DNA from: Mitosporidium daphniae
Taxonomy: Eukaryota > Microsporidia
DNA: 64,000 bases
Direction: 5' to 3'
NCBI RefSeq assembly: GCF_000760515.2
Contig: NW_013546121.1
Coordinates: forward strand, 1 to 64,000
Position 1 is the stretch's first letter. Every line of letters begins with the position of its first letter. Made by a program: the position numbers and the translations under genes. The notes beneath the pieces are model-generated. The model made no database searches and had not been told where the DNA came from. It was given only the letters and a program-made list of their open reading frames with translations. Below, one piece after another: positions 1 through 64,000 of the stretch.

Positions 1-2262
1 CTTTCCGGACAATTTCAGCTCACTAACAAGCTTCTGGATGTCGGCAAGGAGCGAATATTTGACATTAGGACTGATGCCAGATACTCCAATAACACAGGGC
101 TGGTGCTTAGCGATGAACTCGGAAAGCTTTTCCAAGTCTTCCGGCTTTTTGTTCCGATCCAACATATTTGATAACCGAAGAGATTCGACCAAAGCACCCT
201 CTTCATTAATTACAACAGCGTATGTCAGGGACCCTGGAGCGCCATCATACCAGCTTACGGCCATAAATGTAGAAGGAGAATTGCTCGAAGATTCTGGCTG
301 TATAAATTTTCCAAACAAAAGCTTTTCTGTCAGTGAATGCTGGCAAAACTTTCCCACCGTCTCAAGAGCATCTTTCTTCATTTTCTGGCAAAATCTCTTT
401 TTCAAATACGGCATAATGTGGTTATCGACGCAATCCTTCAGAATTTGCTTCCTAAACGGATTCCATTTCTCAGCATTGAGGGAGTATGTTTCGCTCATAA
501 AAAAAGACTCAACTTGGCGATAGTACCTTTCCTCAAATTCAACATCAATCACCACATTTAGAAGATTTACCTTTTCTGCCTCCAGTAGCTCCAGAAACTC
601 GGAATCAACGAACGCAAACATCGGTTTTTTCTGAAGGAACTTGATGTGTGCATATTCGTGAGTAGCGCTGATTTCATGGATGCCTTTTTCTGTTGGATGA
701 GTCGATATAAATATAGAATTCCCAAGAAGCGCTCTAAATGCCTTTCTCACAAAAGGCTCCATTGAAAAATCTTTGGCCAAAAGAGATATCGCATTTTCCT
801 TGATAACTTCTGGGTCTGAATTGTTAGTGGATACCATACTCTGGATCAGAGTTTGCGGTGAAACCGTCGCATCTTCAGGCTCAAATCTCTTCATCATATC
901 GGTCAAATTGATACCAAATTGACGCGGAGTAATGCCAATTTTCGGTAAAAACTCGTGCAAAATCGGGCTTTTTGAGGAAAGCAGTTCAGATTTGCCATCA
1001 ATCCTCTTAATCATGCTGACCGGGCGTTTAAATGCAGTAGATTTGCCGCTGTTAACACTCGAAGATGTGCTAAACGAATCCTTTCCATACTTATAATTGA
1101 TATATTCCAAGCAATCCTCCATATCTTCCTCTTCAAGCTCGGCTTTATTCAGGTAGTGAATAAGATGAGTTTCGTCGATTGAGGAGTTTTCGCGAAGTTC
1201 AAGAAAAGATAGTATTTTTGCTTTTCTTTCCTGCAGTATCTTCCATTTCTCATCATAATCATAAATTGCCCAAAGGTCATCAAGAGAAAGGTACTCTTGA
1301 AAATACTCCTTTCTGTGTGTCGCAATAAAAGGGATCTCAAAAAAATCTTCTCGTATAAATTTTAGAATTGCCGCAATGGCGTTCAGGAATTGCTTTCTAA
1401 ACTCATCCGTCAGTGGCCGCTTTGCGAGCTTTTCAATTTTAAACGCAATATAGACACTCTCCATTCGTAGCTCCGTTTCGGAGATTGGTGGCCTTTGATG
1501 CCCATCTCTTAGCTGAATACGCTCTGGGATATCAATCACCCTGATTGCTTCATCTTCTGTTGTAAAAAGCTTGGCTGCAATCTCGGCAGGCTCATAGATC
1601 TCATCAAGGGAAACGCTTTTTGATCTTATGGAAATATCATCCTGAGGCTCTAGGGACATCTCTAAATCAAAGCCCTCGCCAAAAATATCATTCATTTCTT
1701 GCCATGCACTAAAAATTGATTACTAAAACCGTACTCTGAAAAGGCATTGGATGATGAAGGCGAATGGATTGTTTGGGTCTTCGATACTGATGACCTTGAG
1801 CTTTTATGCAATTTGTTTAGTTTCTGGTCTAATCTGGATGTATTATCTTCCTCATTGTCCATATCCTCTTCAATAAAATTAGCAATGTCATCTTCCTCCT
1901 CTTCCTCTTCATCCTCAAAAAAATCCGCCTCATCTGAATACCGGGAAGAGCTCAGTTTTTGGAATGATTTCCTTGACTTTTGGAAATTTTCTTCAGATTC
2001 ATCGAACATATTTTCTAATGGGGCCGTGTGAGATTTAGCTGCTGATACCACTTCGTCTTCAAAATCTGATGAACTTTCATCGTCTCTAATTCTCCTTTGG
2101 AGCCTTTTAAATTTCTTAGCAGGTTTAATCCTCCGACCTGTATTTTCTTCGATCAATTCAAAATCCTCTTCATCTAAATGATCGTCATCTGAGGAAGAAG
2201 AAGACGATGAAGCTAAAAAAGATAAGAATAACAGTACTCTTAAAGGCGTCCGTGTCTGGCAT
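1..2262 (-). CDS. SPT6: Transcription elongation factor Spt6 (5' half, runs off left edge)
   Basis: Spt6 is the histone chaperone and elongation factor that travels with RNA polymerase II. Three exons are visible: 2238-2262, 1735-2212 and 1-1708, separated by GT-AG introns of 25 nt (2213-2237) and 26 nt (1709-1734); together they give 737 codons, with no stop before the edge. The start at 2262 was chosen because splicing it to the acidic exon gives an N-terminus with the Spt6 motif EDFELIEENTG. After the second intron the protein runs WQEMNDIFGEG, then the conserved core (SLDDLWAIYDYDEKWKIL), and ends inside the YqgF/RNase H-like domain (WYDGAPGSLTYAVV). Spt6 proteins are about 1,400 residues, so roughly half is missing. 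The family call is secure; the exact N-terminus is inferred from splice phase. Confidence 0.9.
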
Positions 2263-2303
2263 AAATAAATGAATTCAAAAACAAATTTCAAGATTAAAAT
2301 ATA

Positions 2304-2377
2304 CGCTCCCGGGTGGGCTCGAACCACCAACCTCACGGTTAACAGCCGTGCGCGCTAACCAGTTGCGCCACGGAAGC
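2304..2377 (-). tRNA. tRNA-Asn (anticodon GTT)
   Basis: Read on the minus strand, the 5' acceptor strand GCTTCCG (2371-2377) pairs with CGGGAGC (2305-2311), leaving G as discriminator base. The anticodon loop CTGTTAA gives GUU (Asn), and the T arm carries the B-box form GGTTCGAGCCC. No intron is present and CCA is not encoded. A short T run just downstream (around 2296-2300) could act as a Pol III terminator. It lies between the divergent starts of SPT6 and RAD2. Confidence 0.95.
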
Positions 2378-2454
2378 ACTTACCATGGATCATTTAATAT
2401 GATTATGTAATACTTTTTTATCGAATTTAAGTAATCTTTTGTTAAAACGAATGA

Positions 2455-62049: not shown

Positions 62050-62074
62050 AATTTTTTAATTTAATAAATTTAAA

Positions 62075-63728
62075 ATGAAAAACACGCGAGCTCCCATAGT
62101 GGGAAGAACACAGGCATCTGACAAATCCTTGCTGTCCTCTCTAATTAGAGGCCTAAAATTCAACAAGCCTTCACGTGATAATAGCAAAAAAAGCTCGCCT
62201 TCAACAACAGCGGAGCAGCCAAAAAAGCATCCAGTATTTATTTGATTTTATTTGTAGAATGAGCCTCAAGGAAACGAGCAAAAAATCCGTCTCTTTGGCC
62301 AGGACATTCCCTCCCCTATTGCTTCCTTCTCGCAAGTTCCAAATTTGCATCCAAAGTACTAGTTTCTATCCTTACCATTAGACTTGTGCTTCGCATTGAG
62401 GAGCTGGGAATGATGGCTCCAACTGCCGTTCAGAAGCAATCGATTCCTATTCTTTTAGCGGTAATGGCAATTCCTTCACATTTAGGGCCGAGATTTAATA
62501 GCCTGCGCACCCACTGGCTCTGGGAAGACACTCGCCTTTTTGCTTCCGATCCTTTCTCTTCTTGAACGCCATTCAAAAGCTGGCGGGTTCAGAGCACTTG
62601 TGCTTGTCCCGACCAGAGAGCTAGTTGAGCAGATTCATAGGGACATTCTGCTTCTTACCTCTTCCTTATCCGATTTTAAAATATGTCCGCTCACAAATTC
62701 AATGTTGAACGGCTTCAAGGCAAATCCTCCATCATCTTTCGGTTTGTCAATCGGCTAATTAACGTTTAGATATCATTCTGTCGACTCCCCTGCTACTATT
62801 TCAAGCGCTGAAAGATAAATGTGTTGACTTGACGCAATTGAAGATCGCCATTCTCGATGAAGCGGATAAATTGCTGGAGGAGTCCTTTTTAGAGCAAACA
62901 GATTCGATTCTGCCGTTCCTTCCGGAACGGTGTGTCAAAGGGTTATTCACCGCCACTCTTCCTTCCACTGCGGAGGCAATGGCATTTACATTCTTGAAAA
63001 ACTCGCCAATTCGGCTCTTTGTCGGCCAAAGCAACGCAGCGACCGAATTTACGATGCAAAAGCTCGTCTTTGTGGGCGAAGAAAATGGAAAAAATTTGGC
63101 CGTTAAGCAACTACTTAACGGAGATTTCAAGTCCCTTATTGACGAGGACAAAAGCTTCATTGGTTTAAAGCCACCCATTTTGGTATTTGTTGACTCCATT
63201 CAGACGGCACGAAATCTTCTCCTGGAACTGGTTCCCTTGAGAATTCCTATGGCAATAATACATGGCGAGAAAAGCCATTCTGAACGCTCTAAAATTATTG
63301 AAGAGTTCCGGATCGGAAACATTTGGATTTTGATTACAACCGAACTGTTGTCCAGAGGAATTGACTTTAAAGGAGTGAATTCGGTGTTGAATTACGATTT
63401 CCCCGACTCATCTGCTTCGTACATCCACAGGATTGGCCGCACCGGCAGGGCTGGACGTAAAGGAATTGCAGTAACCCTGTTTTCAGTGGAGGATTCCGAT
63501 AAACTGCGGTCAATTGCAAATGTCATGCAAGCCTCTGGATGCAAAGTCCCGGCCTTTATGCTAGAGCTGAAGAAAACAAAGAGAAAAGAGCTAATACAGA
63601 AAAAGAGGCTGCTAGATAAAAAAAACAAGCGGCAAAAGAAAAATGCACTTCGGCAGTCGCAACGTTCATCCCAAAACAACGACATCGAGGAGATGGACAA
63701 TAGTGATGAAGACACAGACAGCGGGTGA
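62075..63728 (+). CDS. ROK1: DEAD-box helicase Rok1 (DDX52)
   Basis: Five exons: 62075-62233, 62258-62355, 62382-62460, 62486-62741 and 62770-63728; introns 24, 26, 25 and 28 nt; 516 aa. Rok1 acts in 18S rRNA processing and small-subunit assembly. The Rok1/DDX52 signature GQDIPSPIASF precedes the Q motif; helicase motifs are APTGSGKT, VPTRELVEQ, LDEADKLLEES, TATLP, LLSRGIDFKGVNSVLNYDFP and HRIGRTGRAGRKG. The C-terminus is basic then acidic. The start lies directly after AATAAATTTAAA. Confidence 0.92.
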
Positions 63729-63767
63729 AGGGAGGCTTTTAAATAAATTATTCAATCAGTCAGGATC

Positions 63768-64000
63768 CTATCCTTTTTGGCAAGATTCGTTCCAAATATT
63801 GAGCGTGCAGGAAAGGCAGCGGTATGGCTGCGAGATGGCTTTGATTGAAAACTCACTTGAAATCAGATTCAAAAATCCACAACCGGTACAGTTCCAAAAG
63901 ATCAGCGGGGAACTATTGAAAATATGTAATGAATGCCCAAATGAGGTACCTGTTAAAATGGCAAGAAAGCAGCGTATTTTGTTTTCCAAAGAAAATCTCA
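63768..64000 (-). CDS. Zinc-ribbon protein, C-terminal end (runs off right edge)
   Basis: Minus-strand 3' end: 63950-64000 (partial) and 63768-63912, joined by a 37-nt GT-AG intron (63913-63949) in consistent phase; 64 codons of coding sequence plus the stop are visible. The last exon carries C-x2-C pairs (NCTGCGF and YRCLSC) 24 residues apart, with a further Cys/His in SCHFN at the junction, like a treble-clef or ribbon zinc site. It ends NESCQKG. The family is not recognised from this fragment. Convergent with ROK1, stops 40 bp apart. Confidence 0.55.
   Translation of the reverse strand, partial: RFSLENKIRCFLAILTGTSFGHSLHIFNSSPLIFWNCTGCGFLNLISSEFSIKAISQPYRCLSCTLNIWNESCQKG

Follow-up and report, generated by a model that had tools for sequence, protein, structure and literature searches.

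The first 64,000 nucleotides (nt) of contig NW_013546121.1 of Mitosporidium daphniae (positions 1 to 64,000 of the forward strand, called the window hereafter) carry many genes interrupted by very short introns. M. daphniae is described in excerpts of PMC12534020 as parasitizing the gut of Daphnia magna, and is placed within Microsporidia in the NCBI taxonomy. With a probability of about 0.9, estimated from the DNA and the proteins predicted from it, these are ordinary major-class (U2-type) GT-AG introns whose lengths have contracted into a tight range, mostly 23-38 nt with a median of 28, a little above the minimum of about 21-23 nt which this spliceosome handles well. The original prediction, made from the letters of the window, had counted about 95 very short introns, and this picture stands: 91 introns (median 28 nt) were placed in the window by a GT-AG gene finder trained on 20 other loci only, 85 of them are 21-38 nt long, and 23 of 24 alignable junctions are in register with solved protein structures. 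Judged from such protein comparisons, which support it well, the observation is correct, and the introns are near, but not at, the known minimum.

Number, size and boundaries of the introns

The gene finder combines codon statistics with introns having given boundary dinucleotides and any length within a set range. The two boundary dinucleotides, GT and AG, were fixed beforehand, and the remaining splice signal was learned; motif training was restricted to introns of at most 60 nt. Introns raised the score of the window from 1228 to 1837 in the held-out model. Six held-out introns exceed 38 nt (40, 58, 65, 99, 103 and 103 nt): the three longest, of about 100 nt, are doubtful, the 65-nt call belongs to TFB4 and is backed by homology (see below), and the 40-nt call is the LSM6 intron, which homology corrects to 22 nt. 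When the window was included in the training, 93 introns were placed there, and the whole trained set of 262 kb, out of a genome assembly of 4.66 Mb in 147 contigs, yielded 301. Introns reside in 105 of the 153 gene models of at least 60 amino acids found in the 262 kb, with a density of 1.44 per kb of coding sequence (CDS), which rises to 1.79 per kb CDS within the window; lengths divisible by three were recorded for 82 of 291 introns. Intron counts are probably lower bounds, because in-frame introns free of stop codons, as the one at 22656-22685 in PRP28, can escape the gene finder.

The preference for GT..AG was compared with that for 30 other dinucleotide pairs in the window and 10 of the 20 other loci (L009-L018), 164 kb in all. 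After self-training, GT..AG gains 2303 nats over an intron-free model, the other pairs 367-1359; the gain of the runner-up, TT..AG (1359 nats), is probably in part a shadow of GT..AG. Lengths of GT..AG introns are the tightest among the 31 pairs (10-90% range 25-34 nt). Being the best of 31 pairs after training, GT-AG is the preferred boundary, as in U2-type introns. The donor learned from the 262 kb is AAG|GTAWGT, and the acceptor is T-rich and ends in TAG. Motif scores of at least 6 nats are reached by 91.9% of 86 chosen introns (19-45 nt) vs 5.5% of 8755 unchosen GT..AG candidates, a contrast which is partly circular, since the same score served to choose the introns. Over-represented hexamers, counted without gene models, revealed no splice motif.

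Junctions read in the encoded proteins

The spliced proteins of seven of the 35 gene models of the window, chosen by us, were aligned to solved structures, and the register was judged by reading the alignments against the junction positions. The seven genes have 33 predicted junctions, nine of which lie beyond the alignable parts. The 23 junctions in register correspond to introns of 22-38 nt, and such exact protein junctions provide indirect evidence that these predicted introns are removed from the mRNA.

The clearest case is PCM1, for which eight introns had been claimed: all eight were located, and all eight junctions are in register with 2dka. One PCM1 protein spliced from the window matches M. 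daphniae DI09_9p220 with 100% identity over its 504 residues. The score against PDB proteins is 395.6 bits with intron 1 removed, 371.5 bits in the shorter model. Introns of PCM1 are listed below; those following intron 1 were predicted by the gene finder and are in register with 2dka.

48922..48949, minus strand: PCM1 intron 1, 28 nt, overlooked by the gene finder; alignment ungapped at the junction, giving the N-terminal YGTSGFR
48778..48803, minus strand: PCM1 intron, 26 nt
48540..48574, minus strand: PCM1 intron, 35 nt
48153..48181, minus strand: PCM1 intron, 29 nt
47997..48025, minus strand: PCM1 intron, 29 nt
47807..47832, minus strand: PCM1 intron, 26 nt
47416..47452, minus strand: PCM1 intron, 37 nt
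47270..47293, minus strand: PCM1 intron, 24 nt

All five junctions of THG1 fall within one ungapped block of 213 residues aligned to 3otb; the corresponding introns were all predicted by the gene finder.

27751..27777, minus strand: THG1 intron, 27 nt
27594..27618, minus strand: THG1 intron, 25 nt
27511..27548, minus strand: THG1 intron, 38 nt
27309..27340, minus strand: THG1 intron, 32 nt
27192..27219, minus strand: THG1 intron, 28 nt

In PRP28 both predicted junctions are in register with 4nho, and a 30-nt intron was found by the alignment. A small model at 24222-24450, probably the PRP28 N-terminus by its resemblance to related N-termini, carries a further intron; an intron joining it to the main PRP28 model was looked for and not found. 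Four of the five introns claimed for this gene are accounted for in this way, one of them in the probable N-terminal model, and the fifth was not located.

23515..23545, minus strand: PRP28 intron, 31 nt, gene finder, in register with 4nho
23353..23379, minus strand: PRP28 intron, 27 nt, gene finder, in register with 4nho
22656..22685, minus strand: PRP28 intron, 30 nt, in-frame and stopless, overlooked by the gene finder; an exact 10-residue insertion relative to 4nho, coded by GTAAG...CTAG
24399..24423, minus strand: probable PRP28 N-terminal intron, 25 nt, gene finder only

RAD50 and INP51 had been credited with seven introns each. RAD50 is indeed rich in short introns, with all four visible junctions in register; the number predicted is eight. 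For INP51 the held-out gene finder, as a model only, returned seven.

53521..53554, plus strand: RAD50 intron, 34 nt, inside GKT^TII, gene finder, in register
53807..53834, plus strand: RAD50 intron, 28 nt, gene finder, in register, with a one-residue gap about five residues upstream
53951..53982, plus strand: RAD50 intron, 32 nt, gene finder, in register
54194..54225, plus strand: RAD50 intron, 32 nt, gene finder, in register
Stretch 56833..57603, plus strand: four further predicted RAD50 introns (25, 33, 29 and 28 nt), gene finder only
Stretch 34493..36417, minus strand: seven predicted INP51 introns, 26-34 nt, gene finder only

The shortest introns and the lower edge of length

Three genes had been singled out for the shortest introns. 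The 22-nt intron of LSM6 is confirmed, and is the shortest intron established by homology: the LSM domain scores 64.0 bits upon its removal, 43.5 and 42.6 bits when the other in-frame GT-AG choices, of 40 and 16 nt, are removed, and the match to solved LSm6 proteins is ungapped. The 21-nt intron of SEC22 is favored over the 51-nt intron implied by the public model by motif, length and a small margin of 2.7 bits (99.8 vs 97.1), which falls short of proof. The first intron of SET2, proposed to be the shortest of all at 19 nt, is not established as such. An alternative of 31 nt shares its acceptor, and both are in frame; motif scores are equivalent (8.66 nats for 31 nt, 8.30 for 19 nt), solved homologues stop short of the N-terminus, and the 31-nt form is preferred by the length prior alone. 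The one visible junction of SET2 is in register, and five others fall outside the aligned part.

34040..34061, plus strand: LSM6 intron, 22 nt, ungapped vs solved LSm6 proteins
16699..16719, plus strand: SEC22 intron, 21 nt, favored; ends in an in-frame TAG, the junction lying in a loop
16951..16973, plus strand: SEC22 intron, 23 nt, gene finder, ungapped at the junction
33858..33888 (31 nt, gene finder) or 33858-33876 (19 nt, original prediction), minus strand: SET2 first intron
33328..33354, minus strand: SET2 intron, 27 nt, gene finder, ungapped vs SETD2

Public models err, or differ, at these tiny introns. Three public M. daphniae proteins were retrieved, and two are wrong: LSM6 (P0122, gene 33955-34216) is the version with 40 nt removed, and lacks GVLSSL, where the distant homologue P0127 has GILSSL; PCM1 (P0001, gene 47164-48996) starts inside intron 1, reads its first residues from the intron and lacks YGTSGFR. 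The third, SEC22 (P0121), disagrees with the gene finder. The public SEC22 and LSM6 are encoded on a contig of 864 kb, which probably belongs to the 2025 assembly of PMC12449221. M. daphniae gene models, and the apparent divergence of its proteins, may thus be in part annotation artefacts. The 5' end of GFA1 (19769-21911) was modelled inconsistently, with a first intron of either 19 or 103 nt, and its true start is probably elsewhere.

The lower edge of intron length was monitored under a uniform length prior (12-60 nt). Among the 296 introns obtained, 11 are shorter than 23 nt, and 9, 19 and 42 have lengths of 23, 24 and 25 nt, respectively; the right tail is gradual. The 5-95% range is 23-45 nt, and lengths are hence narrow, with a sharp edge at 23-25 nt. 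Background GT..AG pairs of the same DNA have a flat distribution of spacings. Since the edge persists under a uniform prior, it is not a product of the length prior. Ten of the 296 candidates are shorter than 21 nt (13-20 nt). A comparison with longer alternatives by Pfam scores covered two of the 11 candidates below 23 nt, and both lost. For a COX6B gene, the 16-nt choice was ruled out (56.0 vs 62.0 bits for a 31-nt intron), as was a pair of 37 and 19 nt in TFB4 (54.1 vs 62.8 bits for a single 65-nt intron). The two tested candidates below 21 nt lend no support to a physical limit, and the 19-nt form of SET2 is undecided.

Branch sites were analyzed in 291 of the 301 introns (19-45 nt). When the position of the branch A is given a learned prior, 282 of the 291 have it 6-10 nt before the end. 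A yUnAy-like motif has a log-likelihood of 46.5 vs 3.7-13.3 in 10 shuffles, yet it is degenerate and its placement loose; the signal of a U-rich tract is stronger (123 vs 72-83 in three shuffles).

The small nuclear RNAs (snRNAs) U1, U2, U5 and U6 have one match each above the Rfam cut-off. Their cores, read by eye, look canonical (U1 ACTTACCT, U2 GTAGTA, U6 ACAGAGA, U5 GCCTTTTAC), and the learned donor is complementary to the U1 5' end GTACTTACCTGG, as in U2-type introns. The U6-binding domain of PRP8 resides in an open frame of 2419 amino acids. Accordingly, the U2-type set formed by these four snRNAs and PRP8 is encoded. Three G-patch loci were decoded without RBM17 being seen (six places matched, and a fourth was identical to one of the three); the decoded loci are presumably TFIP11 or RBM5/10-like.

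Other features emerged in the survey. The COX6B gene mentioned above (L016:509-935, minus strand; 62.0 bits, 31-nt intron) encodes a respiratory-chain subunit in a microsporidian relative. A spliced gene at 60138-61153 (plus strand) encodes a eukaryotic (mitochondrial-type) porin (Porin_3, 174.4 bits). The assembly is in part redundant: the C53 and C99 loci (L044, L045) share 3126 bases at 100% identity, and DEAD-box scores are equal within the contig pairs C19/C93 and C114/C132.

Proposed shrinkage without loss, and known systems

In the mechanism proposed, U1 would pair with the donor, and U2 with a degenerate yUnAy branch site located about 6-12 nt before the intron end. The lower length edge may result from the sum of the spacings between 5' splice site and branch (about 15 nt) and between branch and 3' splice site (about 6 nt). 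In a compact genome, pressure towards deletion would drive introns down to this floor while their numbers stayed high, and canonical microsporidia would have lost nearly all of theirs separately and later. M. daphniae could accordingly represent an intermediate stage of reduction, with numerous introns shrunk to a floor of about 22 nt (about 15 plus 6 nt around the branch), a canonical spliceosome, and mass loss occurring later elsewhere. To this wider scenario, drawn from M. daphniae DNA alone, we would give slightly less than even odds. The data suggest that M. daphniae, as an early microsporidian, kept many introns after near-minimal shortening. Were the scenario true, intron shortening and intron loss would become separate processes in a lineage noted above all for intron loss.

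Several results weigh against the interpretation of these sequences as ordinary, shortened U2-type introns. In the pass with untrained, flat scores, GT..AG (407.7) does not rank at the top, being preceded by TA..TT (425.5) and closely followed by TT..AG (405.4). The gene finder erred by calling 40 nt for LSM6, and by overlooking the first intron of PCM1 and the 30-nt stopless intron of PRP28. The branch site is weak: without the position prior, placement of the branch A spreads over 4-31 nt, and the two-spacing floor is therefore a suggestion. In the 21-nt intron of SEC22, if real, the best yUnAy match (CTAAT) is just 10 nt from the donor, less than the 15 nt proposed. The search for the U2AF large subunit gave 30 matches, none above the cut-off, and one of the loci concerned, C78, reads like an RBM39-type protein. 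The search for SF1 gave no match anywhere, controls included, and is uninformative.

Three other explanations were considered. Many of the intervals might be artefacts, namely indel errors, decaying pseudogenes, or chance GT..AG spacers restoring the frame. Flat-score decoding gains nearly as much from arbitrary dinucleotide pairs, so that single introns predicted by the model only can be wrong, and some long introns (99-103 nt) look dubious, as does the 5' end of GFA1. Yet GT..AG separates strongly once trained, lengths are narrow without a prior, and alignable junctions are exact but for one; even in the flat-score pass, in which 71 pairs were run, GT..AG is the richest in 20-35 nt introns among the best 30 of the 71 (61 of 106; next 47). 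Junction alignments of the predicted proteins have largely refuted this explanation, which we regard as very improbable. Just as hard to believe is a spliceosome remodelled specifically to suit ultra-short introns, a proposal made for Stentor, with introns of 19 nt or less being common. The 13-20 nt candidates which appear once the length prior is removed, and the 19-nt form of SET2, speak for it; canonical-looking snRNA cores and the steep fall of lengths below 23 nt speak against it, and it becomes less likely because both Pfam-tested candidates below 21 nt, out of ten, lost to longer alternatives. Finally, the introns could stem from a recent gain of short units and not from shrinkage of longer ancestors, which seems unlikely. 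Uniform length could reflect a common source, and the INP51 intron at 34714-34744 (minus strand) ends in CCCTAACCCTAACTAG, resembling the telomere repeat TTAGGG given in excerpts of PMC12449221. However, 3 of 291 introns contain telomeric hexamers vs 2.1 expected, which leaves a telomere-repeat origin unsupported, and no common sequence was noticed by eye among 60 introns, a search for shared sequences not having been run.

The portions of the literature on M. daphniae covered by our search hold no account of this intron set; Haag et al. 2014, outside that search, may give one. The word "intron" does not occur in the main text of PMC12449221, PMC5701793 or PMC12534020, and the caleosin gene of M. 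daphniae is intronless according to excerpts of PMC6309107.

Shorter introns than those of M. daphniae are known, and its intron length is therefore no record. Excerpts of PMC10245619 report 16-17 nt in mikrocytids, 18-21 nt in chlorarachniophyte nucleomorphs and 15-16 nt in heterotrich ciliates. In the trained set only 2 of 301 introns are 21 nt or shorter, and lengths of 15-21 nt, typical of these three groups, are not the rule in M. daphniae. The idea that its spliceosome works at a physical limit is not sustained, given the published introns of 15-17 nt and the canonical look of snRNA cores and PRP8. Mikrocytos mackini and Paramikrocytos canceri are likewise intracellular parasites whose spliceosomal introns are numerous, very short and narrow in range; their introns are highly conserved in sequence and their spliceosome is highly reduced, whereas M. 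daphniae introns are mostly 23-38 nt with degenerate signals (PMC10245619, in part). Chlorarachniophyte nucleomorphs also combine many short introns with a compact genome, and differ by intron length (same source). Introns of about 25 nt, thus of similar size, are found in Paramecium and Nyctotherus, which are however ciliates (excerpts of PMC5014332). The heterotrich Stentor shares with M. daphniae tiny introns, conserved snRNA recognition cores and the lack of a strong branch consensus, but has introns of 15-16 nt, in which the branch A is nearly fixed at position 10 (most) or 11; the N-terminus of ISY1 is one Stentor marker (excerpts of PMC9505925).

Within the same phylum, Encephalitozoon cuniculi also has GT-AG introns, but very few, with relatively strict 5' splice site and branch motifs (PMC3629993 and PMC8476143, in part). 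M. daphniae, with 301 introns in 262 kb and degenerate donor and branch signals, does not conform to this canonical pattern. A large fungal reconstruction in PMC8476143 dates intron loss to the microsporidian ancestor, and Mitosporidium is not mentioned in the excerpts covered. The same source gives a mean of 0.01 introns per kb over 15 species of canonical microsporidia, and 2.53 per kb in Rozella. The contrast drawn at the outset with intron-poor canonical microsporidia is thus borne out (1.44 per kb CDS vs a mean of 0.01 per kb), and the "very high density" then claimed holds relative to them, but not to Rozella. Intron density in M. daphniae is intermediate, above that of canonical microsporidia and below that of Rozella.

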